Assembly: GCF_037126435.1 (NCBI RefSeq)
Contig: NZ_CP147020.1
Coordinates: forward strand, 2,531,293 to 2,595,292
DNA length: 64,000 nucleotides
DNA from: Bernardetia sp. ABR2-2B
Lineage (GTDB): Bacteria; Bacteroidota; Bacteroidia; Cytophagales; Bernardetiaceae
Reading direction: 5' to 3'
Positions 3,603 through 33,227 of this stretch are shown piece by piece (within the stretch, counting starts at the first letter, position 1; every line of letters begins with the position of its first letter). The notes below the pieces were generated by a model that was given only the letters and a program-made list of their open reading frames with translations, had not been told where the DNA came from and ran no database searches. Both the position numbers and the translations under genes were made by a program.

Positions 3603-3626
3603 TTTTTTATCTATTTTCAATACTAA

Positions 3627-3692
3627 TTCAACCCTATTTCAACTATAATTCAACTATTTTTCAACCCTATTTCAACTATAATTTAACTGTTT
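3627..3692. repeat. Six TTCAAC motifs at exact 11-bp period
   Basis: TTCAAC (last copy TTTAAC) begins at 3627, 3638, 3649, 3660, 3671 and 3682, so all copies sit on one face of the helix. The array is itself a duplication of a 33-bp unit (3627-3659 and 3660-3692). It lies between a double terminator and the secreted Cys-rich protein gene at 3792. Such phased arrays are typical of iterons or cooperative operators. Confidence 0.75.
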
Positions 3693-5432: not shown

Positions 5433-6890
5433 TTACTCTCCTAAAATCATTTTTTCTACTTCTTGTTTTGCTTCTTTGAGAAGCTGTTTGCCCTCTTTTT
5501 CTAAAGCCTTTGCACGACTACGTAGAGATGATATATGAGTAGCAATTTCATTTTGAACTTCCATTGGTGGAAGAGGAATAGACATACTTAAATATTCTTG
5601 CATAATTAAGTTTCTTATTCCATTTGTTTGACTTTGCATCAAATCTGTAATTTTTATGTTATGGATAGTTTTAAGAAAAACGAATAAATAACTTGGATTT
5701 ATAATCGAGGAATCTACACGAATTTTATGAATAAAATTACTGTAAGCTAAATTATGCTTTTTATAAATATCTTCTGTAATTATTGCAATTCGTCCAACAG
5801 GTTGGTCTTTACTTCCTCCCGATTTTTCAATCAATAAATCATCAATCTGCAAATCCATTTTTGATAATTTAACTTGACTAATGAAACGATATTTTACTCT
5901 ATTATTAGTCAATTTTAAATTATATAAATTATCAAATTCAGTAGCACGGATTACTAAACATTTATCAAAACCTTCTAAATCTTTATCTATTCCCCAATCT
6001 CCTGCAACAGATTGAGTAATAATATCTTTCATTCTGATTACAGAATACTTTTTAGATTGCAAGGAATTAATTAGTTTTTGTCCGTTAGGTTCATATTTTT
6101 TTGGGTCAAAACGCTTTCCTTGTACAGCACTAAAACGAGTATAGAAAAATGGTTTTGTTTGAGTGGATTGAGATAACTCAATGCCTAATTTTTCCATCAA
6201 ATAATCATCAATACTATCTAATAATTGCTTTGCCTCTTGTTCTTTTTGCTGTTTTTGTTGATAGGCGTTTTGGAATAAATTTACTATTTCTTGTTGTTTT
6301 TCTAGTGGTGGAATTGGGATTTTTAAAGAACGTAATAATTCAGCACCTATACCAGATTGATTATTCCAATTTGTACAAATACTATAAAATATCTTTCTTC
6401 TATGAAACGAATTAAACAGTAATACTAGAAAATAGGGAACAATTTTATTTTCATCTACTCGTATTCTTGTTATATGATTAGAAAACATAAAACTACCATT
6501 TTCATTAAAAAACGAAGTTTTTCCTACTAATTCTTGACTATTTGTATTGTTGAACAAAACATCTCCTTTTTCAAGAAAAATATCCTTTTTAGATTCTACA
6601 AATTCTTTAGGTAGATAAACATTCTTCTTAAATTTTAAATTTCCTTCGTTTCCTATATTCGTAGGTCTAATTTGTATTATTCCTCCCTCTTCTTGAGATT
6701 GGTCTTGTTTTCCTGCACCGAATCCAGATTTCATATTTAGAATGACATCTTTGATTCTACGTATCGGATATTTATTTTCAGTCAAGAAACCAAATAATTC
6801 TCCTTTATAAAATGTTGGGTCAAAACGTCCATCTATTGCCCTTCTCTGTATGATAAAAATTTTATCTTTATTCAGTGAAGGGCTTAGACG
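5433..6890 (-). CDS. hsdS: Type I-like specificity subunit (HsdS), frameshift-fused
   Basis: Two target-recognition halves, each opening with an RFDP motif: GRFDPTFY in the first and KRFDPKKYE in the second, each followed by a KDI/KDV segment and ending in a coiled-coil spacer (PPLEKQQEIV and PPMEVQNEIA). The part downstream of a TTG at 6785 would lack the first RFDP block. The full first half is open in this frame back to 6890, yet contains no ATG/GTG/TTG there. The frame joins the upstream methyltransferase frame by a -1 shift at the T TTT TTC heptamer (6896-6890). I therefore annotate it as the C-terminal part of a fusion; 485 residues counted from the shift. If not fused, the start would be non-standard. 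Confidence 0.75.
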   Translation of the reverse strand, partial: RLSPSLNKDKIFIIQRRAIDGRFDPTFYKGELFGFLTENKYPIRRIKDVILNMKSGFGAGKQDQSQEEGGIIQIRPTNIGNEGNLKFKKNVYLPKEFVESKKDIFLEKGDVLFNNTNSQELVGKTSFFNENGSFMFSNHITRIRVDENKIVPYFLVLLFNSFHRRKIFYSICTNWNNQSGIGAELLRSLKIPIPPLEKQQEIVNLFQNAYQQKQQKEQEAKQLLDSIDDYLMEKLGIELSQSTQTKPFFYTRFSAVQGKRFDPKKYEPNGQKLINSLQSKKYSVIRMKDIITQSVAGDWGIDKDLEGFDKCLVIRATEFDNLYNLKLTNNRVKYRFISQVKLSKMDLQIDDLLIEKSGGSKDQPVGRIAIITEDIYKKHNLAYSNFIHKIRVDSSIINPSYLFVFLKTIHNIKITDLMQSQTNGIRNLIMQEYLSMSIPLPPMEVQNEIATHISSLRSRAKALEKEGKQLLKEAKQEVEKMILGE

Positions 6891-6896
6891 AAAAAA
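6838..6896 (-). promoter_or_regulatory. Probable -1 programmed frameshift site
   Basis: On the minus strand the zero frame reads CAT TTT TTC GTC TAA. T TTT TTC is a canonical X XXY YYZ slippery heptamer in register (6896-6890). A six-base spacer (6889-6884, containing the TAA) is followed by a perfect 7-bp GC-rich stem GCCCTTC (6883-6877) / GAAGGGC (6844-6838), with an inner hairpin GATAAAA/TTTTATC (6866-6852) in its loop. Slippage reads on as TTT TTT CGT CTA into the specificity frame. Confidence 0.7.
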
Positions 6897-9055
6897 TGGT
6901 CTGTCCCTTCTTCTATGCTATTGATGAATTTTTTTAGTTCTTGGGTTATTTCTATAAGGTCGTTTTGAGGTATTGTTTTTCCTGTTGCATCATATCCAAT
7001 ATTTTCAGCTATTGCCATAAAAATTGGATAGTCTGGTAATTGTTCTTGTTTTTGAGTGAGATAAATCTCTTCTAGCTCCTCTTTAAATTGTGTTATTTTT
7101 TCATTGTACTCATCTGTAATTTCTTTCTTTTTTGCTTTTGTAGCTTCGTCTTTTGTTTTTAAGTCCTTTGTTTTCTCTTTCTTTTGCTTTTGTAAATCAT
7201 CTATATTTTCTTTGAGCTTGTTTTGTGATGCAATTTGATTTTCAATTTTTTCTTGAAGTTTCTGTATTTCCTTTGTTTTTTGTTTAGTATGTTTTTTGAG
7301 AAACAAAACAGATGATTTTACACCTGCGCCTGTTGCAGTAAAAGTCGTTTGAGGAAGAGAAACTACGGCAACAATCCTAAAATCTTTTTCAATTTGATTT
7401 CTAACATATTGCAATGAGCTATTTGTAAGTATTCCATCTGGCAAAACAACTGCTAAATATCCTCCTTCTTTTAGAAAGTGATGTGCCTGTTCGATAAAAA
7501 GAATTTCAGTAGATTGATTTTCCCTTCCTGTGGTTTTATGATTTGGTTTTAGTTTCTTATCAATCCAGTTTACATCTTTTATAGCTAAATTGTAATACGG
7601 TTTTTGATGTTCTGTAATCTGCATATATGACTTTTCTACTTGCTTTACAATAGAACCAAAAGGAGGGTTGGTAACAATAAAATCAAATGAATTTTCTTTG
7701 AAGCCTGTATTTCCTGTTCTTTCACTTATCGTTTTAATATCATAAAGTCCATCATGGGTAACTACGTTGGTGTGTCCATCATCATGAATAATCATATTCA
7801 TTTTTGCTACCCTAGAAATTTGGTCATTTATTTCTATTCCATAAAGGTTTTTTTCAGCGAAATCGTGCCAATGTCTATGCCAATCATTGTAATATCTTCC
7901 TGCTCTCTCTCCTTCTTCTGGCTTTGGGTAATGTATATCGGCTTGTCTTCTGACTTTATCCAATACATACAATAAAAATCCCCCACTACCACAAGATGTG
8001 TCTAAAACTCTAGCTTCGCTTGTGATAGGTAAAACATCAACAGTAAATTTTACTACATTTCTTGGTGTAAAATACTGTCCAAATTCTCCTCTAAAATAAG
8101 AACCTAAAAAGGTTTCAAATGCTTTTCCTTTGCTATCAAGGTCTGTTTCTGTAAGATTTACAGCTTGAAAATATTCTACAATACTCTTTATTCTTTCTGG
8201 TGTAAGGTCAATATCTTTGCTAAAAACATCTGGGTCTTTTTGTTTTCCTTTGTCATAAAGTCCAAATATTTTTGCTTTTAATTCTTCTACTGTTTCATCA
8301 GAAGCTACTTGAAACTGATACGGTTGTCCTACTGTTGTATTTCTTTCGTCCCAAATTTTGCAAAATATAAGTTTATCTAATTCGTCAAATGCTTGTGTAG
8401 GATTGAGTTCTCCACCTGCCCAAAGAGCATCATGAGCTTGTTTAAAAAGACGTTCAAGGTCACTTTCTGTAATCTCTTTTAAATCTTCTACTTCTGTTTT
8501 TTTACTTGCTCCTTGTTTATTCTCATAATAAAAACCATTTTTAGCAAATCTATATTTTGGCTCATCAGTTTCTCCAAAATAAGGAATATTTGCTGTTTGT
8601 TCTTGTGATTTTTGGTCTTTATTAAATTTATAAAACTCTTCTTTGTTTCCTTTTGTAACCCAAACAAATTTAGTAGTTCCTGCAATCGCATGAGCATAAC
8701 TAAGAGCTTGTTTTACAGCTTCTTTAAATTCAAGTTCTGAAATATCCTCTTTTTTACATTCAATGACGATATATGGTTTTTCTAATTTCTCATCTTGATA
8801 AACCAATATATCAGCTTCTTTTGTAGAAACACCCATTTTGACACTCTCAAACATCAAGATATGTGTTTGAGGATAACCATAATGCAAAACAAGTTTACAG
8901 TAGGTTTCTACTTGTACTTGTTCCTCTGGGTTTGTGTATTTTCTTTTTTTATTTTGATGAAGGTAAGTAACATATTCCTTTTTACCATCAATATGAATAA
9001 GTCCTTTTTCAATTCCTTTAATTGTATATTCTCGTAGTTTTTCAGTCTGGCTCAT
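6884..9055 (-). CDS. Nuclease-methyltransferase RM protein (HsdM-like)
   Basis: 723 residues from the ATG at 9055 (MSQTEKLRE); an in-frame ATG at 9097 would add 14. The N-terminal HsdR_N-like domain has a PD-(D/E)xK pattern (ADILVY with D82, IECKK with E99 and K101). Then comes an N6-adenine methyltransferase: DTSCGSGGF at 352-360 (SAM motif I) and TNPPFG around 462-467 (motif IV). Residues about 590-680 are a long coiled coil. Nuclease plus methylase in one chain with a separate or fused specificity part is the BcgI/type IIG arrangement; no HsdR translocase gene is present. Restriction and modification would be done by one complex. Confidence 0.8.
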   Translation of the reverse strand: MSQTEKLREYTIKGIEKGLIHIDGKKEYVTYLHQNKKRKYTNPEEQVQVETYCKLVLHYGYPQTHILMFESVKMGVSTKEADILVYQDEKLEKPYIVIECKKEDISELEFKEAVKQALSYAHAIAGTTKFVWVTKGNKEEFYKFNKDQKSQEQTANIPYFGETDEPKYRFAKNGFYYENKQGASKKTEVEDLKEITESDLERLFKQAHDALWAGGELNPTQAFDELDKLIFCKIWDERNTTVGQPYQFQVASDETVEELKAKIFGLYDKGKQKDPDVFSKDIDLTPERIKSIVEYFQAVNLTETDLDSKGKAFETFLGSYFRGEFGQYFTPRNVVKFTVDVLPITSEARVLDTSCGSGGFLLYVLDKVRRQADIHYPKPEEGERAGRYYNDWHRHWHDFAEKNLYGIEINDQISRVAKMNMIIHDDGHTNVVTHDGLYDIKTISERTGNTGFKENSFDFIVTNPPFGSIVKQVEKSYMQITEHQKPYYNLAIKDVNWIDKKLKPNHKTTGRENQSTEILFIEQAHHFLKEGGYLAVVLPDGILTNSSLQYVRNQIEKDFRIVAVVSLPQTTFTATGAGVKSSVLFLKKHTKQKTKEIQKLQEKIENQIASQNKLKENIDDLQKQKKEKTKDLKTKDEATKAKKKEITDEYNEKITQFKEELEEIYLTQKQEQLPDYPIFMAIAENIGYDATGKTIPQNDLIEITQELKKFINSIEEGTDHFFV

Positions 9056-9147
9056 TAGGTGTTTGTTGTAAATGCCTATAAGAAAATTATTTAGCAATTT
9101 TCTAAAAATTGAATCAACAAAGATATATTTTAATAATAAAAAAACAC

Positions 9148-11163: not shown

Positions 11164-11892
11164 ATGAATAGGAACGATTATTTCGACGACGATTTTCCTA
11201 CCGATGAGCCACAAGAACTAAATGGAAGAAGGCGAAGAAAACGTAAAAAACATAGTAGTCGTAGCAGTAGAAGACGTAGAAAACGAGCTAGAAAGAAAGC
11301 ACGAAAAGCCAAACGTAAGGCACGTAGAGCCAAGCGTCGCACAAGAAGGCGCAAAAAAGGTGGTTTTTTCAAGCGAGCTTGGCAAGGCTTCAAACGTTTT
11401 AATCCTGCTACGGTAGCTATCCGAAATGGTATTTTGGCAGCAGCTAAGATAGACCTCAAAAAGATGAGTTCTAGGCTGCGATATGGGTATCTGACATCTA
11501 CACAGGCACAACGTCTAGGTGTAGATATGACCAAACACCAAAAAATCAAACGTGCGCTTTCCAAACTAGAACGTAAGTTCAAACAACTCGGAGGAAGAAC
11601 ACGAAACCTCAAGCGAGCTATCCTCAAAGGTCGTGGCAACAGAGACCGAAAAGTACCACTCTCTGGGTTCTCCTCTGACATAGACATTTTCGTTCCTACT
11701 CATGCTAAAGAAGAACTAGGCGAAGTAGCAGCAGCCACAGTAATTGCAGCAGCAACGCCTGTCTTAGTAGCTCTTCTAAATATGCTTAACAAATCTGGTG
11801 TAAAAACCGAACAGGATATGTATCCAGAAGAGCAAGAATATGATGAGTATGGCTACGAGGACGAATACGGAGAGGAGGAAGACTATGGATAA
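11164..11892 (+). CDS. Arg/Lys-rich protein with acidic tail
   Basis: 242 residues in three parts. Residues about 20-75 are almost pure Arg/Lys (RRRRKRARKKARKAKRKARR), as in DNA-condensing proteins. Residues 80-165 hold a folded segment (SSRLRYGYLTSTQAQRLGVD ... KLERKFKQLGGR) that I have seen as a type in Bacteroidetes phage-like clusters. Residues about 178-200 are a hydrophobic Ala/Val helix, probably a membrane span, followed by an acidic Glu/Tyr/Asp tail. The charge pattern suggests a virion protein bridging nucleic acid and membrane. The stop overlaps the next gene (ATGGATAA). Confidence 0.6.
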   Translation: MNRNDYFDDDFPTDEPQELNGRRRRKRKKHSSRSSRRRRKRARKKARKAKRKARRAKRRTRRRKKGGFFKRAWQGFKRFNPATVAIRNGILAAAKIDLKKMSSRLRYGYLTSTQAQRLGVDMTKHQKIKRALSKLERKFKQLGGRTRNLKRAILKGRGNRDRKVPLSGFSSDIDIFVPTHAKEELGEVAAATVIAAATPVLVALLNMLNKSGVKTEQDMYPEEQEYDEYGYEDEYGEEEDYG

Positions 11893-12387: not shown

Positions 12388-12969
12388 ATGGCACGTAAGT
12401 ACAGACCTTTACCAGATGAAATGGTAGAATACATTGTAATTCATACCTCTGCAAGCCCTCAAAAATATACGTGGGAATGGCTACTGCATTATTTTATCAA
12501 CATTTTGAATTGGAGCGTAGCAGGCTATCATGTTGTCGTTGAGGAAACAGGGCTTGTCAAACGGCTTGTCCCTCATGGCAAACAATCTAATGGTGTGAAA
12601 GCCTTTAGAGCAAAGGACATTTTTATCAGTAATCGTAATGCTATCCACATTTGTTGGGAAGGTGGTATTGATGAGAATGGACAGCCTACGGATAATCGCA
12701 CAGAAATTCAAGAAAGAGAATTGATACGTGTTTTAGAATGGTATTTATGGAAATATCCAAATGCCAAAGTGTTAGGACACAATCAAGTAGATTTGAAAAA
12801 TTGTCCTTGTTTCAATGTCATTGAATGGGCAAGACAGATTGAATATACTGATTTAAACACTAACACACGCATTGTAGGTATTCCAGAATGGAGAATCTAC
12901 AAAGGCGACAATTTTAAAGTTTTAGAATACCATTTCGGATATGATAGCACAAAGCAAGCGTCAGCTTAA
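12388..12969 (+). CDS. N-acetylmuramoyl-L-alanine amidase, T7-lysozyme type
   Basis: 193 residues, Amidase_2/PGRP fold, cutting the amide between muramic acid and L-alanine in peptidoglycan. Zinc ligands match T7 lysozyme: H19 (VIHTSAS), H131 and C139 (GHNQVDLKNCPCF); Y47 (GYHVV) and K137 match the catalytic Tyr46 and Lys128 of T7 lysozyme. There is no signal peptide, so it either acts from within a particle or is released by other proteins. It overlaps the start of the transglutaminase-like gene by 29 bases. Role: entry through or exit from the host wall. Confidence 0.85.
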   Translation: MARKYRPLPDEMVEYIVIHTSASPQKYTWEWLLHYFINILNWSVAGYHVVVEETGLVKRLVPHGKQSNGVKAFRAKDIFISNRNAIHICWEGGIDENGQPTDNRTEIQERELIRVLEWYLWKYPNAKVLGHNQVDLKNCPCFNVIEWARQIEYTDLNTNTRIVGIPEWRIYKGDNFKVLEYHFGYDSTKQASA

Positions 12970-15157
12970 ATCTGGCAAACGATATGACCATCTGATTCCG
13001 AAACCTAATTTTCAAAACACAAAACTCTCTGATTTAATTGAAGTAGGATTTACAGTTAAATCCATGAAAAACATTGTTCGTGCTACCCACACGGACGTTG
13101 CTAGGCTTGCACAAGCCCTAAAAGGAAAAACGATTACAGAGACATGTTCTACTATCTTTCATTTTGTCTATGACCATATTCAATATGAAAAAGACAGAAG
13201 AGGCATTGAAGAAATCCGAACTCCTGCTAGAATGTGGGCAGATAAAAAAGGAGACTGTGATTGTTTCAGCGTCTTCATAGGCGCACTTCTTTATTCGCTA
13301 AAGATTCCTTTTGCTTTCAGAATAACCAAATATTCGTCAGACTGGCAACACGTTTATATCATCGTTTACAATGATGATGCGCCCAATCGCAAAGAACTCA
13401 AACTCTTCAAAGATGAAATTACTGGAGAGGAATATGAAAAAGTAGTCCGTACAAATAAGCCGAAACGCTACAACATCATTGACCCTGTAACAGATGATGA
13501 CGACTACGAAGTAGAATTTACAGACAAACAAGACCATAAGATGAGTACATTATTGCTTTCTGGGATAGACGATTACGATACCGATTATCAAGATGATGAT
13601 TATGGTAACACTACCGTAGAGGAAGACTTGGGCGCACTCGGTTTATTCAAAAGACGTAAGCGAAAAAAACGCAAGAGCCGAAACAAGAAAAAAAGAAAAG
13701 GAGGAGCTTTCAGTCGTTTCAAGAACAAACGTAAGGCACGTAAAGCAAAGCGAAATGCGAAAAGAGCAGCCAAAAGGACAGCTAAAAAGGCTAAAAAGAG
13801 ACTTTCTAGTCGTTCATTAGATGAGCTTGTCAAGCTCTACACAACCAATCGTGGAGTGCTAAACGACAAGACTTGGCAATCTATTTTCAAACAGTTTTTG
13901 GCAAGAGCCAAACGAGAGGCAAGCTATAAAGCAGCCTTACAACGTGTTTCTACTTCTGCTCAAACTCGCAACACATGGAATGCTATCATAAGACATTCCG
14001 TTTTCAAAAAAGCCTATACGGACTATCAAAAGAACCCTAGTTCTTCTAAGTCTAAAGGTAGAAAGAGAGGTTTTTTCAATCGTTTTCGTAAGAAAAACAA
14101 AGGGACAAGTACAAGAAAAAAGAAAAAGCGTAGAGGCATTTTCTCACGCTTTCGCAAGAAAAACAAAGGTGGAAGCACCAAAAAACGTGGAGGTATTTTC
14201 TCTAAACTCAGAACGAAACTAAAGGAGAGAAAGAAGAAGCGCAAAGCACGTAGAAAAACGAAGAGAGCCGACCGAGCAAAAAAGGGAAAAACCAATTTCC
14301 TCAAACGTTGGAAACAACGTCGTAAGCAGCGTAGAGACCTAAAACGTAGGAAAAACAATGCTAAAAAAGACACTAAGAGAAATGTTACTATCCGAACAAG
14401 AGGTACAACTTCTAACCAAAGAGGTAAAGGAAAAGTCCAAATTACCAAAGACAAAATCAACCCTATCAAAATAGACCATCAAAACGATATTCAAACTGAT
14501 GATTTCAATTTTGATGACTTTGATGCAGGTACTACTTCAACAACAACTACTAAAAATACAGGTAGTGGAGGAAAGAGTTGGACAGATGAAGATGGAGACT
14601 TTTTTAGTGAAGGTGACTGGGGAGGCGATGATACTCCAGAAACCCAAACCCAAAAAAGTGGAGGTTCAGAGCAGAAAGAAGATGATATTTTCTTTGATAC
14701 TTCAGAGATTGAAAAAGGCATTGATGATGATTTAGATTTTGATATGCAACAATCTTCTAAGGATATAGAAGCTGCCACTAAGAACCTCACGGAAAACCTA
14801 CCGATGCTCAAAGATGACTTTGCTGCAATGGTGGAAGATGATGGTGGACTCTTAGACGATGAAGGCGATTTTGCTGATGCTAAATTTGATGAATTAGACG
14901 AGTTTGGAGACGAAGAACCCCAAGAGCTTAATCTATTCCAAAAAGGCATTGCGTGGGCAAAAGAAAACCCAAAAACAGCCGTCGGCATTGGCATAGGAGG
15001 AACTGTTATCATTGGTGGTACAGTCTATCTACTGACACGTCCTAAGAAACCCACTTCTTATCAGCCTTACAAACCTAAGAGTAGCTACAAACCACGTAGT
15101 GCAGGAAAGAAAGGAAAAAGTCTGAAAGGTACTGCTGCCTTTGCAGGATTTAGTTAA
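12941..15157 (+). CDS. Transglutaminase-like protein with basic and acidic regions
   Basis: 738 residues. Residues about 40-150 are a transglutaminase-like papain-fold domain: KKGDCDCFSVFIGALL (C106) and WQHVYI (H137), with the Cys-His order intact. Residues 230-510 are extremely Lys/Arg-rich, with repeated RRGIFSRFRKKNKG-type units (about 380-430). Residues 520-670 are acidic, Asp/Glu/Ser-rich. A membrane span (AVGIGIGGTVIIGGTVYLL) lies near 678-700, followed by a basic Pro/Tyr/Lys tail ending AAFAGFS. It may crosslink or cleave peptides while binding nucleic acid. A multi-domain virion protein is the best guess. Confidence 0.7.
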   Translation: MIAQSKRQLKSGKRYDHLIPKPNFQNTKLSDLIEVGFTVKSMKNIVRATHTDVARLAQALKGKTITETCSTIFHFVYDHIQYEKDRRGIEEIRTPARMWADKKGDCDCFSVFIGALLYSLKIPFAFRITKYSSDWQHVYIIVYNDDAPNRKELKLFKDEITGEEYEKVVRTNKPKRYNIIDPVTDDDDYEVEFTDKQDHKMSTLLLSGIDDYDTDYQDDDYGNTTVEEDLGALGLFKRRKRKKRKSRNKKKRKGGAFSRFKNKRKARKAKRNAKRAAKRTAKKAKKRLSSRSLDELVKLYTTNRGVLNDKTWQSIFKQFLARAKREASYKAALQRVSTSAQTRNTWNAIIRHSVFKKAYTDYQKNPSSSKSKGRKRGFFNRFRKKNKGTSTRKKKKRRGIFSRFRKKNKGGSTKKRGGIFSKLRTKLKERKKKRKARRKTKRADRAKKGKTNFLKRWKQRRKQRRDLKRRKNNAKKDTKRNVTIRTRGTTSNQRGKGKVQITKDKINPIKIDHQNDIQTDDFNFDDFDAGTTSTTTTKNTGSGGKSWTDEDGDFFSEGDWGGDDTPETQTQKSGGSEQKEDDIFFDTSEIEKGIDDDLDFDMQQSSKDIEAATKNLTENLPMLKDDFAAMVEDDGGLLDDEGDFADAKFDELDEFGDEEPQELNLFQKGIAWAKENPKTAVGIGIGGTVIIGGTVYLLTRPKKPTSYQPYKPKSSYKPRSAGKKGKSLKGTAAFAGFS

Positions 15158-23768: not shown

Positions 23769-26700
23769 ATGAGAAACTACTATTCAGAACGGATTAGGCT
23801 TATAGAAGATGTCATTGATGATATGCGTAAGCAGGGAATGCACGATAAGCAATCAGATACATCACAAGACTACAAAGCTCTGCAACTTGGTTTTATATCT
23901 GATTTTGTGCGCTCTGAATATGAATCAGAATTTGCAGAACTAGACAATGATGACAAATCCGTAGAACCTACTCAAATAGAGCTATGCTCTTACAGTAATT
24001 TCTTTGAGAAATACCCTCATAAAACCGTAGGAAAGAAGTTTTTATCTTCTTCATTTATGTTCGCTGTTCAGTCTAAAGCTACACTACAGGAAAGTGCAGC
24101 GATGCTAAAAAGAGAAATTTCTACACTTAAAAAGACTACTTCAACTCCCTCAAAACTAAAACTCAAAATGAAAGCCAAAGCCCTCAAATTACTTCAATTA
24201 CAAGCACAAGCCGAACTAGAGTTAGGTACTGGCTTGAATGGCTTGGACGGTTTGGGAGCATTGGGCGAAGTAGATAAAAAAGAAATTTCTGCGAATGCCT
24301 CTCTACTGGCTAAACTTGTCAAAAAAGAAGAGCAAAGAGCTAAAAAAATTAATTCTTTTGATGATAACTTTAAAAGATACAACAAGGGAATTAGTGAAAA
24401 TGAGATTAAGGCGTGGGTGTGGTTTAAACAGTCGCAAGGTAGTCCGATGCACGGTTGGGAAAAATATTTCTTGAAGTCCACAAAACTCACAGTAAAAAAT
24501 GAAGAGGTTTTAGTAACCACTCAATCTACTACTATCAAAGACAATCACTTCAGAGATGAAAAGAAAGTTCCTTCTGGGTCTATTTTGGGGAAACCTACTC
24601 GTTTTCAAAATGAGTATGACAATAAAACTTTTCAGATTTTTACAGACAAAGAAGGGCATAAAAAGTATGTAGATAAGTCTCATGTACGCACACAGCGCAC
24701 TCAAGCCACAGCAGACCCAAAAGAGCTAAGTAAACTTGTTAAAGAAGGAGCTTTATTTGTAGGCGAAACAGACTTTTTGCCCTTGCCATTGTTTACCTTC
24801 GGAAACGTCTATGATAGGATTTTAGCTCTTGAAGAGAAAAAGAGTTTTATCCTAGAACAATACGGGCAAGATGTATATGAAAAGCATATTGAAGCTCTAA
24901 ACGCAGCCAAACCTCGTCCTTTGTCTGTACTTACTCCAGATGCTACAAAGCGTCTGAAAATACTTCCCTTTTCTACATTTGCTAAAGAATTTAAGATTAA
25001 AAATGATGCTGAAGGCAATGAGATAGGCGATGAAGATGGTATTAGTCTGAATAGTTTTTTCCGTATTTGGTTAAAGCAAAATTTAGAGCTGATAGAAACA
25101 CAAGGTATTTCTGGTTACAATATCATTCATCACTACTTAGATGGTGGTTCAAAACCGAAAGAAGAGAAAGAGTTCATTGAAAAATACGCTCGCTTAGAAG
25201 GGGATAGACTGTTTGATATTTTCCTTCACACAGGCATATCTGTCAATGACCAAAAGCGTTTGGATATGGCTTGGAACAGACAGTACAACGGGTTTGCTAG
25301 TTTGAACTACAAACGTATTCCTATTGGTCTTACAACCTCTGCCCTATTCAAAGGCAAATCGCTTGCTTTTATGGAGGCACAACGAGAAGGAGTAGCTTAC
25401 ATTGATGCTGTGGGTTCTGGCTCTATTGCATACGATGTAGGAGTGGGAAAGACGATGACGGCTATTCTTATCTTAGCTCAAAATATTCAAAACGGCACGT
25501 ACAAACGTCCTTTGATTGTTGTTCCTAAACCTACGTATGAGAAATGGAAAAATGAAATCAATGGTTATAAAGATAAGAAGGGAAACTTTGTAGAAGGTGT
25601 ACTATCTCATTTAGGCATCAAAATTAATGATTTTGGGAATATGGGAAAAGCCTATATCAATCCAAAAACGATAAATAAGCAAGTAGAGGAAAAGTCTATT
25701 ACGATTGTTTCCTATGAGGGTTTTTCCAGAATTGGTTTTTCTCCTGCCCTAGAAAATGAACTGCTCAAAGATTTATCTAAAATCGTCCTTCAAGATGATG
25801 ATTCATCTAAACGAGATTTGGAAAAGCAGTACGAAAACCTACGAAAATTAGTAGGTCGTACTGCCAAAGGCACAGTCTGTGATATTGACGTTTTGGGTTT
25901 AGATGCCATTATCATTGATGAGGCACACAACTTTAGAAACGTGTTCTCTTACGTTCCTGCACAAGAAGGTGTGAAAAGATACAGTACACAAGGTTCTACC
26001 TCAAGTAGAGCGCAGTCTGCTTTTATGCTTTGTAATTATATACAACGCAAATATGGAGGAAATGTCGTCTTACTTACAGCGACACCTTTCAATAATTCGC
26101 CTTTAGAGGTATATTCTATTCTATCGCTGATTGCTCTCAATAAAATGGAGAGAGTAGGTGTAAAATCACTTTCTCAATTTATGGAAACCTTTATTCAAGA
26201 GACCTATGAGGTCGTTGTAACAGCTTCTAATAAACTGGCGCAAAAGCCTGTGGTCAAGTCGTTTCAGAATAAAAGGTCATTACAAAGTCTTGTGTTTTCT
26301 TATATCAATTTCAAGACTGGAGAAGATGCAGGCGTACGTCGTCCTGTGAAAGTAAATATTCCTAGATTGTCGTATAGAAACAGTAATAATGAGCTAATTC
26401 ATTTGAAGCCAAGTGAGCAAATCACAAGCTATCTGCAAATGAATGCGATGCAAGACGAATATCAAAAGGAAGCTGTCTCACTTGCCGAACGAGGAAGTGG
26501 ATTTAAGGAAAAAGGAAAAAATGTGCTTGTAGCTATGAGCATGAGCCGAAAGAATGCCTTTAGTCCTTTTTTACTTTCTGATGAAAAACCAGAAGATTAT
26601 TTAGATTTTGTAGAAAATAGCCCCAAAATACACTACACAATGGAGTGTATTGCTTCAGTCAAAAAACACCACGAGAAAAGTGGAACGCCTGTTTCTGGTC

Positions 26701-28028
26701 AAGTGATTTATTCTAATATTGGCAAGGTCTTTTTTCCACTTATAAAAGAATACTTAGAGAAAGAAGTAGGGTTCAAAAAAGGAATTACTTTCAGTAGAAA
26801 AAAATTCGACGAAGTAGAAATTGTTACAGGCGATGGAACGGCTGCCAGAAAAGAAGCTATCAAAGAAGCCTTTTTGAGTGGAATCGTAAAAGTAATTATT
26901 GGCTCTTCTACCATTCGTGAGGGAATTGACTTACAGAAAAGAGGAACAGTTATTTATAACCTCTATCCAGATTATAATCCTACCGATATTAGACAACTAG
27001 AGGGACGTATTTACAGACAGGGAAATATGTTTGGCTATGTTCGTGTAGTAACACCTCTTATTCAGAACTCAATGGACGTATTCATTTTCCAAAAGTTAGA
27101 GGAGAAAACAGCACGTATCAACGATATTTGGGCAAAAGCTACGGATGAATCTAATGTACTTGACCAAGAGAGCTTAGACCCAGAAGCTGTAAAGTATGCC
27201 CTTTATACAAACATTGATAAGCTAGTTGCTCTAAAAGTCGCTGAGATGGAGATGGAAATTCTCAAATCCAGAAGCAAGATTGAAAATGAGCTAAGTACAC
27301 TTAGAGAGGTAGAAATGTCTCGTAATTCGTATGAAACTTCTAAGAAGATTATTCAAGAAAAACTACCACAATTTAAGCGTTTACTCATTAATTTTTTAGA
27401 AAGGAATGAGGCAAATTCAAGCAAAGAACTAGAAAAGAAGAAAGAAAAATACACCTCTATTCTGCAAGATATAGATGCTTATGATAATTCGGATGATAAG
27501 AAATTAGTACGTGTTGCGTTGCGAATAAAGAGAGAGCAACAAGACTTCTTTAGAAACTACTCTTATACAGACCACTTAGATAAGTTTAGGGCAGCACTAA
27601 CAAAAATCAACAAGTCAGAATCTATCCTTGCCAAGTATGATGGCAATATTGAGGAAGCAATCAAGAAAATAGAATTTTCTATTACAGAGCAGAATCAAAA
27701 AATAAAAGAACTGAAAGACCAAAAGTTTTTACAATCTATCTATAACCAAATTGTAGAAGAGAAAAAGAAACTCAATATCACAGGGCGTAGTCCACAAGCA
27801 GCAGCTAAAGACTTTGCACAACTCAACTATCTCTTAGACTATACAATGGCTGATGTTGATGGAGTACATGGAAATCCATTGCCTACTGATAAGCCTAAAT
27901 CAACGCTAAAACCAAAGGCATTACCTCAATCCACTACAAACAAGGCTAAAGTAAAACTCAAAATGAAAGCTAAAGCCCTTAAACTTCTTCAACTACAAGC
28001 ACAAGCTGAACTAGAACTAGCAGCCTAA
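23769..28028 (+). CDS. Large SNF2-type helicase
   Basis: 1419 residues, superfamily 2. Walker A GVGKTMTAI near residue 560, DEAHNFRN near 716 (motif II), LLTATPFNNSP near 770 (motif III), SSTIREGIDLQ (motif V) near 1045 and RQLEGRIYRQGN (motif VI) near 1077. The N-terminal 500 residues have no known enzyme signature. The 22-residue block starting KLKMKAKALKLLQLQAQAEL occurs twice, at 131-152 and 1396-1417. Large methylase-helicase pairs are carried by phages and plasmids as antirestriction or entry proteins (P1 DarB style); a replication role is equally possible. Confidence 0.85.
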   Translation: MRNYYSERIRLIEDVIDDMRKQGMHDKQSDTSQDYKALQLGFISDFVRSEYESEFAELDNDDKSVEPTQIELCSYSNFFEKYPHKTVGKKFLSSSFMFAVQSKATLQESAAMLKREISTLKKTTSTPSKLKLKMKAKALKLLQLQAQAELELGTGLNGLDGLGALGEVDKKEISANASLLAKLVKKEEQRAKKINSFDDNFKRYNKGISENEIKAWVWFKQSQGSPMHGWEKYFLKSTKLTVKNEEVLVTTQSTTIKDNHFRDEKKVPSGSILGKPTRFQNEYDNKTFQIFTDKEGHKKYVDKSHVRTQRTQATADPKELSKLVKEGALFVGETDFLPLPLFTFGNVYDRILALEEKKSFILEQYGQDVYEKHIEALNAAKPRPLSVLTPDATKRLKILPFSTFAKEFKIKNDAEGNEIGDEDGISLNSFFRIWLKQNLELIETQGISGYNIIHHYLDGGSKPKEEKEFIEKYARLEGDRLFDIFLHTGISVNDQKRLDMAWNRQYNGFASLNYKRIPIGLTTSALFKGKSLAFMEAQREGVAYIDAVGSGSIAYDVGVGKTMTAILILAQNIQNGTYKRPLIVVPKPTYEKWKNEINGYKDKKGNFVEGVLSHLGIKINDFGNMGKAYINPKTINKQVEEKSITIVSYEGFSRIGFSPALENELLKDLSKIVLQDDDSSKRDLEKQYENLRKLVGRTAKGTVCDIDVLGLDAIIIDEAHNFRNVFSYVPAQEGVKRYSTQGSTSSRAQSAFMLCNYIQRKYGGNVVLLTATPFNNSPLEVYSILSLIALNKMERVGVKSLSQFMETFIQETYEVVVTASNKLAQKPVVKSFQNKRSLQSLVFSYINFKTGEDAGVRRPVKVNIPRLSYRNSNNELIHLKPSEQITSYLQMNAMQDEYQKEAVSLAERGSGFKEKGKNVLVAMSMSRKNAFSPFLLSDEKPEDYLDFVENSPKIHYTMECIASVKKHHEKSGTPVSGQVIYSNIGKVFFPLIKEYLEKEVGFKKGITFSRKKFDEVEIVTGDGTAARKEAIKEAFLSGIVKVIIGSSTIREGIDLQKRGTVIYNLYPDYNPTDIRQLEGRIYRQGNMFGYVRVVTPLIQNSMDVFIFQKLEEKTARINDIWAKATDESNVLDQESLDPEAVKYALYTNIDKLVALKVAEMEMEILKSRSKIENELSTLREVEMSRNSYETSKKIIQEKLPQFKRLLINFLERNEANSSKELEKKKEKYTSILQDIDAYDNSDDKKLVRVALRIKREQQDFFRNYSYTDHLDKFRAALTKINKSESILAKYDGNIEEAIKKIEFSITEQNQKIKELKDQKFLQSIYNQIVEEKKKLNITGRSPQAAAKDFAQLNYLLDYTMADVDGVHGNPLPTDKPKSTLKPKALPQSTTNKAKVKLKMKAKALKLLQLQAQAELELAA
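24159..24224 (+). repeat. Copy 1 of duplicated peptide-coding repeat
   Basis: 66 bp coding for the peptide KLKMKAKALKLLQLQAQAEL plus EL near the N-terminus of the helicase. Copy 2 is at 27954-28019. The two copies encode identical peptides but differ at several third or synonymous positions. Confidence 0.85.
27954..28019 (+). repeat. Copy 2 of duplicated peptide-coding repeat
   Basis: 66 bp at the extreme 3' end of the helicase gene, peptide identical to copy 1 (24159-24224), DNA different mainly at synonymous sites (GCC/GCT, TTA/CTA, GAG/GAA). Confidence 0.85.
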
Positions 28029-31762: not shown

Positions 31763-32947
31763 TTATTTTTTATCACGAAAGACTCTGTCAAATTCATTTT
31801 TGACTAACCATTCGTCAATTACTTTAGCATACACACTCTCTGTATATCTTACTGTTTTGTGTCCTAAAACACGACTTACTGTTTTTACTGTTATACCACT
31901 ATTAAGCAAAAGTGCGCCTAATGTATTTCTTGATATATGAGAGGTCAGGTATTTATTGATTCTTGCCATTTTTACACAAATACGCAAGTTTTTATTGTAA
32001 ACGTGTCCAGTTACAGGAGTGGTATCAAAGTTTACTTTTTTCAAAAACTTCATTCCATTTGGTAATAGTGGAATCTGCTGATAAATATCTGTTTTACCAC
32101 GTTTTTTAATGAGCCAGTTCCAATCAGTTTCATTTTCTGCTATTCTGAAGTGTTCTGATTTACTAAAAGCTGCTAAATCTCCGTACGCAAGACCAGTATA
32201 ACATTGAATGACAAATAAATCTCTGACACGTTCTAACTTGTATTCTTGTGGGAGAAATGTCAAATTTTCTAGTGTCTCTAATTCTTCTGGTGTCAGATAA
32301 ATGTACTCCTTTTCTTTCTTTGGCAGATACACATCATATTTTGCAACAGCATCTTTAGATAACTTTCCAGTTGAATAGCCAAGTTTGATTGCAGCCTTTA
32401 TTCTACCAATGGTTTTAGCTACATAATCTACACTTTCTATATCTCCACTTGCTAACATTTTTTCTGCAAGAGCCTCTAAATCGGCATGATTTAATTTTTC
32501 AGCTTCTAAATGTTCATTTTGTCTATTATCTCTCAAATAAGGAATTAACCAAATTCTTAATGTTGTATCATAGGTGTTTAAAGTTACTTGTTTTCGTTTT
32601 TCAATATTTTTCTTTCTCTCAATCAGTTGTTCAAATAGTTCCACTACTGTAACTTTAGGCTTTAGCTTATTTTCATAAATATCCGAAATCTCTTGAATGT
32701 GTGATATAGTATCTTTATTGTGAAAATAAATTCTTGTTAAGTCTGCTTTTATATCATCAAGCACAATATTGTAAGCATCTGCATTCCTTCCTATAACTTG
32801 AGTTCCATTCCAATATTTTGGATAAATTCTCACTTTAGTAGAAAGTGGTACAGAGCGTTGTCCGTCATAAGAAACATAGTATTGAACTGTTCCTAATTTA
32901 TTTTCTGGTTCTTTTTTGTTTTTCCTAAGTGAGAAAACAACATTCAT
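31763..32947 (-). CDS. int: Tyrosine recombinase (integrase)
   Basis: 394 residues, of the Bacteroidetes phage/conjugative-element integrase type: N-terminal arm-binding domain (YYVSYDGQRSVPLSTKVRIY), SAM-like core-binding domain (about 100-200), catalytic domain from about 215. Catalytic residues: first Arg in ERVRDLFVIQCYTGLAYGDL, HISRN (H-x-x-R), GHKTV (second His) and the nucleophile Tyr in RYTESVYAK. The gene starts about 210 bp from the 3' end of tRNA-Cys and reads away from it. It is predicted to insert the element at the tRNA and to excise it. Confidence 0.9.
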   Translation of the reverse strand: MNVVFSLRKNKKEPENKLGTVQYYVSYDGQRSVPLSTKVRIYPKYWNGTQVIGRNADAYNIVLDDIKADLTRIYFHNKDTISHIQEISDIYENKLKPKVTVVELFEQLIERKKNIEKRKQVTLNTYDTTLRIWLIPYLRDNRQNEHLEAEKLNHADLEALAEKMLASGDIESVDYVAKTIGRIKAAIKLGYSTGKLSKDAVAKYDVYLPKKEKEYIYLTPEELETLENLTFLPQEYKLERVRDLFVIQCYTGLAYGDLAAFSKSEHFRIAENETDWNWLIKKRGKTDIYQQIPLLPNGMKFLKKVNFDTTPVTGHVYNKNLRICVKMARINKYLTSHISRNTLGALLLNSGITVKTVSRVLGHKTVRYTESVYAKVIDEWLVKNEFDRVFRDKK

Positions 32948-33123: not shown

Positions 33124-33156
33124 ATAAAGGTGTAATTTGCCACTTTAAGTGAATTG

Positions 33157-33227
33157 AGGTTGCGAGCGGATTCGAACCGCTGTACACGCTTTTGCAGAGC
33201 GTTGCCTAGCCGCTCGGCCACGCAACC
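33157..33227 (-). tRNA. tRNA-Cys (GCA)
   Basis: Minus-strand cloverleaf: acceptor GGTTGCG pairs with CGCAACC, anticodon stem-loop has CTCTGCAAAAG with anticodon GCA, T-arm has GGTTCGAATCC. Discriminator U as in bacterial tRNA-Cys. Likely integration target of the adjacent integrase. Confidence 0.97.

Follow-up and report, generated by a model that had tools for sequence, protein, structure and literature searches.

The question raised by this locus is how a restriction enzyme comes by its specificity part when the reading frame of that part has no start codon of its own. In Bernardetia sp. ABR2-2B (genome size 5.38 Mb) a restriction nuclease-methyltransferase (RM) and an HsdS-like specificity part (S) lie one after the other on the minus strand of the stretch analysed here, 64,000 nucleotides (nt) of contig NZ_CP147020.1, hereafter called the window, and S is written in the -1 frame relative to the end of RM. 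From the letters of the window alone it had been proposed that a programmed -1 ribosomal frameshift joins the two, giving RM on its own as well as an RM-S fusion. The present comparison supports this interpretation, since slippery site, stem and -1 S frame are conserved across a class of 20 loci, and programmed -1 ribosomal frameshifting very probably yields both RM and RM-S, as far as sequences can tell.

The RM/S junction in Bernardetia

The unit is composed of the following elements, given with their positions in the window and the basis of each assignment.

6884 to 9055, minus strand: RM, a PD-(D/E)xK nuclease (HSDR_N_2, Pfam PF13588) with an N6-adenine methyltransferase (Pfam PF02384)
6890 to 6896, minus strand: slippery heptamer T_TTT_TTC, lying in phase with the RM reading frame (sequence; homologues)
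6884 to 6889, minus strand: 6-nt spacer GTCTAA, which holds the RM stop codon at 6886-6884 (sequence)
6877 to 6883, minus strand: left arm of the putative stimulatory stem, GCCCTTC (sequence, folding, covariation)
6845 to 6876, minus strand: loop of the stem, containing an inner hairpin (minimum free energy (MFE) and centroid structure)
6838 to 6844, minus strand: right arm of the putative stimulatory stem, GAAGGGC (sequence, folding, covariation)
5433 to 6890, minus strand: S part in the -1 frame, HsdS-like with two target-recognition domains (TRDs) (two Methylase_S stretches; AlphaFold model)
6237 to 6761, minus strand: first target-recognition half of S, at residues 44-218 in the numbering of the -1 part (Methylase_S; Pfam)
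5436 to 6146, minus strand: second half of S, which covers residues 249-485 and carries an RFDP motif of its own (sequence, homologues, model)

The zero-frame RM product comprises 723 amino acids (aa) when the ATG at 9055 is taken as the preferred start, the mechanically called open reading frame (ORF) beginning at a TTG at 9097. Residues D78/E95/K97 (D/ECK) and the motif NPPF are invariant among the homologues of the frameshift class. By sequence as well as by top fold match, RM.BsaXI is the closest solved structure, and the RM model displays a long two-helix stretch rich in K and E near its C-terminus that recalls the paddle reported for BsaXI. The AlphaFold model of S consists of two similar halves and two long helices and matches HsdS subunits and S.BsaXI, the latter being among the closest solved relatives of S by sequence and fold.

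At its 3' end RM reads GAC CAT TTT TTC GTC TAA. The in-register T_TTT_TTC (6896-6890), followed after 6 nt by a 7-bp stem with an inner hairpin (6883-6877/6844-6838), was confirmed as originally described, and the stem reaches an MFE of -17.1 kcal/mol as against -5.1 ± 2.3 in dinucleotide shuffles (z -5.25), none of the 200 shuffles being as good. Equally correct was the statement that an HsdS-like protein follows in the -1 frame without a start: from 6890 this frame runs for 485 codons up to the stop at 5435-5433, and neither ATG, GTG nor TTG occurs between the preceding -1-frame stop and the first RFDP motif of S, the mechanical call of the S ORF beginning 35 residues late. After a slip, S would contribute 485 aa to a predicted RM-S fusion of 1207 aa.

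A conserved and covarying signal in one class of homologues

Relatives of RM were gathered from GTDB contigs and by 1,989 whole-genome searches, and their RM/S junctions, which were then read, sort into three sharply distinct kinds. The first kind, with slippery site, spacer and stem, comprises 20 loci of Bacteroidota, Pseudomonadota and Bacillota (the window locus, which is L002; further L003, L004, L005, L011, L013, L032, L033, L034, L035, L058, L059, L105, L107, L117, L128, L135, L136, L138 and L142). In the second kind, represented by 73 rows of the tree, RM and S are ordinary separate genes with start codons and frequently an ATGA overlap; here the stem is absent and the heptamer nearly always so. 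The third kind (L040, L046, L053, L068 and, found later, L148) has RM-S as a single frame. Closest to the window at the RM-S locus are metagenome-assembled genomes of Bernardetia and Flexibacter, with 94% and 91% identity across RM. The original prediction had named an ordinary start codon for S or an intact single frame in homologues as evidence against a frameshift; both do exist, yet they are confined to branches outside the class of the window, where the stem is missing. Two partial relatives were found among plasmids and four relatives in viral contigs, of which the only one with a readable junction has ordinary separate genes, and the search of phages returned none.

Conservation of heptamer and stem among homologues, which had been suggested as a check, was found throughout the first kind. 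In-register X_XXY_YYZ is present in 19 of the 20 loci, in the forms T_TTT_TTC, T_TTT_TTT, A_AAT_TTT and C_CCT_TTT, with pattern and register kept, and a compensated stem lies 6 nt behind the heptamer in all 20. In 18 loci the zero-frame stop falls inside the spacer; in L058 and L138 it stands 15 nt past the heptamer, within the stem, with spacer and stem unchanged, and the signal thus follows the heptamer and not the stop.

The stem arms vary widely and are GC-rich (GCCCTTC/GAAGGGC, GCCCCAC/GTGGGGC, GCCTCGATT/AATCGAGGC, CCCCCAGC/GCTGGGGG and others). In the 18 arm pairs that differ from one another, 93.8% of the 162 cells are paired, compared with 69.2 ± 2.6 after shuffling (0/500), double-sided changes amount to 39 cells compared with 14.1 ± 2.8, and the covariation score is 0.667 compared with 0.204 ± 0.036, where part of the pairing is by construction, since loop lengths differ and the arms were therefore linked by a dummy AAAA with the register set by hand at the outermost stem base. 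Most weight accordingly falls on the variety of pair types and on slid controls, in which the partner was moved by 1-3 columns and just 34.6-61.1% remained paired. When whole right arms were shuffled, 161 of 171 real pairings stood against 118.5 ± 5.7, and none of 10,000 shuffles was as high. Folding z values for the 60 nt after the stop range mostly from -3 to -6.4 in the first kind and are near zero in the second. Elsewhere in the RM genes of the family, none of 528 in-frame heptamers is followed exactly 6 nt downstream by a GC-rich stem 6 bp or longer, and such a stem occurs at all at 259 of 76,064 RM codon positions.

The -1 frame itself is conserved at the protein level in the first kind: S lies in this frame in 18/18 scorable loci and is intact, with 466-488 aa, in all 17 complete ones, at an identity to the window S of only 22-46%. 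Upstream of the conserved strand 17 of 18 scored loci lack any ATG, GTG or TTG, and no alternative start codon is conserved upstream of S in this kind, whereas all 41 scorable loci of the second kind possess a usable S start, in mixed frames. The residue encoded at the right arm is Ser in 35 of 41 proteins of the second kind and G, R or A in 18 of 18 of the first, so that the RNA stem appears to have overridden a preference of the protein. The window junction and that of a close relative, L003, differ by a single change, counted over the final 30 nt of RM together with 50 nt more, and homology then ends at the variable recognition domain; the signal has thus been retained while specificity was exchanged.

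Some members of the first kind show peculiarities of their own. A G10 run in the right arm of L059 probably masks an assembly error and L032 carries an in-frame TAA within the RM frame, and individual loci such as these may be defective. In L136 and L142 the heptamer C_CCT_TTT is preceded a few bases upstream by a good Shine-Dalgarno-like AAGGAG (-8.3 kcal/mol), a possible extra stimulator. As a defining element of the class, a Shine-Dalgarno-like stimulator was rejected, being good in some loci and missing in many.

From a probable frameshift to the enzyme, and competing explanations

What we infer concerns slippage itself, its rate and the composition of the complex. Ribosomes arriving at T_TTT_TTC would be held by the stem 6 nt downstream; in part of them tRNA-Phe would slip back by one base to pair with TTT again, and translation would continue into S to yield the 1207-aa RM-S, while the remaining ones would terminate at TAA and release RM. 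Tryptic peptides to be expected from the junction are FINSIEEGTDHFFR for the fusion and FINSIEEGTDHFFV for the RM end. As S has no start of its own, every S would be covalently tied to one RM; a free RM would occupy the second RM place of the enzyme, and the frameshift rate would set the balance of RM to RM-S. By analogy we lean towards an enzyme of one RM and one RM-S, equal to the (RM)2S of Type IIB enzymes. This composition fits because BsaXI is (RM)2S (PMC11997821) and because an engineered fusion in EcoKI needs free M: in that enzyme M ends close to where S begins, and the artificial M-S protein does not cleave in vitro unless free HsdM is added (PMC3510504). BcgI is composed as A2B (PMC4027205).

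Several points weigh against this picture. L034 carries just T_TTT in place of a full heptamer, in L117 one TTG could serve as a start for S, and an upstream Shine-Dalgarno-like stimulator is not consistent across loci. Moreover, in E. coli the sites U_UUU_UUU and U_UUU_UUA shift much less readily than A_AAA_AAG does (PMC5009743), so that a rate near 50% is not assured. Single-chain TstI acts as a homotetramer without free RM (PMC4027205), hence the fusion might suffice alone, and the stoichiometry is much less certain than the frameshift.

The strongest competing explanation, which we regard as possible yet rather unlikely, starts from here: the frameshift is real, but RM-S alone is the working enzyme, as in TstI and AloI, with the stop throttling its level or RM being a by-product or a helper in methylation. 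Type IIB single-chain RMS enzymes indeed need no free RM (PMC4027205), and five homologues of the window RM-S are single ORFs. Yet these same five suggest that RM alone is wanted there too. In 5/5 of them the longest T run of the gene lies exactly at the RM/S junction (junction codons 709-734), as T9 or, in L068/L146, T10, and the loss of one T turns ...DSFFLS... into ...DSFF-stop, which is nearly the RM end of the first kind; a gain of one T leads to a stop within about three codons as well. Most other homologues have separate RM and S genes, permitting two RM per S, and the (RM)2S make-up of BsaXI likewise counts against RM-S acting alone.

In many bacteria a stretch of nine T is liable to slippage (PMC1088944), and we infer that the third kind uses transcriptional slippage at its T9-T10 tract, which could also be phase-variable. 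A broader idea, for which we see about as much reason to believe as to doubt, is that recoding serves as an assembly rule: either a -1 frameshift (three phyla) or a T9-T10 tract (cyanobacteria, with single-ORF loci in Planktothrix, Microcystis and Pseudanabaena, and one member of the Bacteroidales) would give RM and RM-S, each enzyme would contain one free and one S-fused RM, and the family would parallel dnaX in the field of restriction, its two devices having been reached separately.

That slippage of the transcript, and not of the ribosome, restores the frame in the first kind too is very improbable. The tendency of T9 to slip (PMC1088944), the T9/T10 tracts of the single-ORF homologues and the ability of nascent RNA stems to stimulate transcriptional slippage (PMC5009743) could be quoted for it, but the runs in the first kind have just 4-7 T in nearly all members, and A_AAT_TTT and C_CCT_TTT are optimal heptamers for ribosomes and poor slippage tracts for polymerase.

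Slightly more improbable still is a separate synthesis of S, in which ribosomes reinitiate or are translationally coupled at a non-standard start just past the RM stop, with heptamer and stem incidental or controlling the coupling. RM-S and hsdM-hsdS pairs are often coupled via overlapping stop and start (for EcoKI see PMC3510504), and the separate-gene homologues scored above all have a usable S start; the scored members of the first kind, however, lack ATG, GTG and TTG with the one exception mentioned and share no other codon conserved as a start, and coupling predicts neither an in-register heptamer nor the 6-nt spacer measured from the heptamer in L058 and L138.

Finally, a former single RM-S gene split by a frameshift mutation, a phase-variable T tract or an error in the sequencing is hardly credible, despite the T6 tract at the window junction and the T9-T10 single-ORF homologues, possibly phase-variable, because the -1 arrangement with intact S is common to 20 loci in three phyla, some without T6, phase variation would not need a covarying stem, and the class of the window has no long repeat tract (mostly T4-T7 and non-homopolymer heptamers); with heptamer types and stem conserved and S intact, none of these readings, nor that of a simple indel, was kept for the first kind.

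Programmed -1 frameshifting thus remains the preferred reading, and it sets the locus beside several known systems. With the Type IIB enzymes BsaXI and BcgI it shares an RM chain of nuclease and N6-adenine methyltransferase and an S with two TRDs, but there S is a separate subunit, whereas the window S, having no start, is expected only within the RM-S fusion. Single-chain Type IIB RMS enzymes (TstI, AloI, HaeIV) likewise unite RM and a two-TRD S in one polypeptide; they are, however, written in a single frame with all chains alike, while the message of the window should give both RM and RM-S. The engineered HsdM-HsdS fusion of EcoKI (Type IMS), in which the end of M joined to S gives an active system (PMC3510504), is artificial, whereas the window locus appears to make fused and free chains naturally by recoding. 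The likeness to dnaX lies in one gene yielding two products, one short and one long, whose ratio suits a mixed complex, and in slippery site plus stem; the differences are that the frameshifted product is the long one here (the review notes the same for a few dnaX genes), that the site is of the T/AT/CT type, and that the gene is a restriction gene. In Thermus thermophilus dnaX, transcriptional slippage on A9 gives what E. coli dnaX obtains by -1 frameshift (PMC5009743, PMC1088944). Insertion sequences of the IS3 family and csoS2 also join two frames by a bacterial heptamer, often with a downstream stem (PMC5009743; an IS3 example in PMC545597), in unrelated genes and for unrelated purposes.

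Genomic setting, evolution and meaning

On the RM tree (a quick IQ-TREE search with SH-aLRT support only) the first kind needs at least three state changes, for rows near the midpoint root, for a clostridial clade and for the single branch of L058. The clostridial clade and the L058 branch are nested within groups of the second kind, hence more than one gain, loss or swapping in of the device took place. Horizontal transfer is likely, because members of Methylococcales and Bacteroidota intermix. A gene of about 490 aa directly follows S in clostridial frameshift loci (L105:9638-11104, L108:5198-6667); the Pfam scan of the L105 copy gave no match, and it is possibly a third component there.

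In the window the RM-S copy sits to the left of a run of genes which ends in a tyrosine integrase beside a tRNA-Cys:

31763 to 32947: tyrosine integrase
33156 to 33227: adjoining tRNA-Cys

The segment 10170-33227, mostly ORFs without Pfam match together with Amidase_2, transglutaminase-like, SNF2-type helicase and AAA genes, is probably an integrative element. Two neighbouring ORFs of this mobile-looking segment contain extremely Arg/Lys-rich stretches of low complexity (11164-11892 and 12941-15157), and iteron-like tandem repeats of 11 nt (TTCAACTATAA-like) lie at 3616-3692, flanked by small ORFs to the left of the RM-S unit. The SNF2-type helicase (23769-28028) is about 15 kb away from the unit; among those flanking ORFs that were scanned, only a part of the total, none matched HsdR, the separate ATP-dependent translocating subunit that a Type I system encodes together with M and S, either near the window unit or beside the other loci of the class.

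Few cellular uses of bacterial -1 frameshifting are on record, the review listing dnaX, csoS2 and insertion sequences (PMC5009743). Among the openly licensed full texts searched, including a recoding review and a genome-wide survey of frame transitions, no restriction system with such a device was found; REBASE and supplements were outside this scope, and an earlier note is possible.

Gene callers would be prone to mis-annotate loci of this kind, as a broken gene or as an S with a truncated first domain, and heptamer, 6-nt spacer and stem together offer a search pattern for more members. As the conserved junction immediately precedes the variable recognition domain, a change of target specificity can leave the signal in place. 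If the proposed reading is true, a single start codon would suffice for an asymmetric (RM)2S machine in which every S is attached to an RM.

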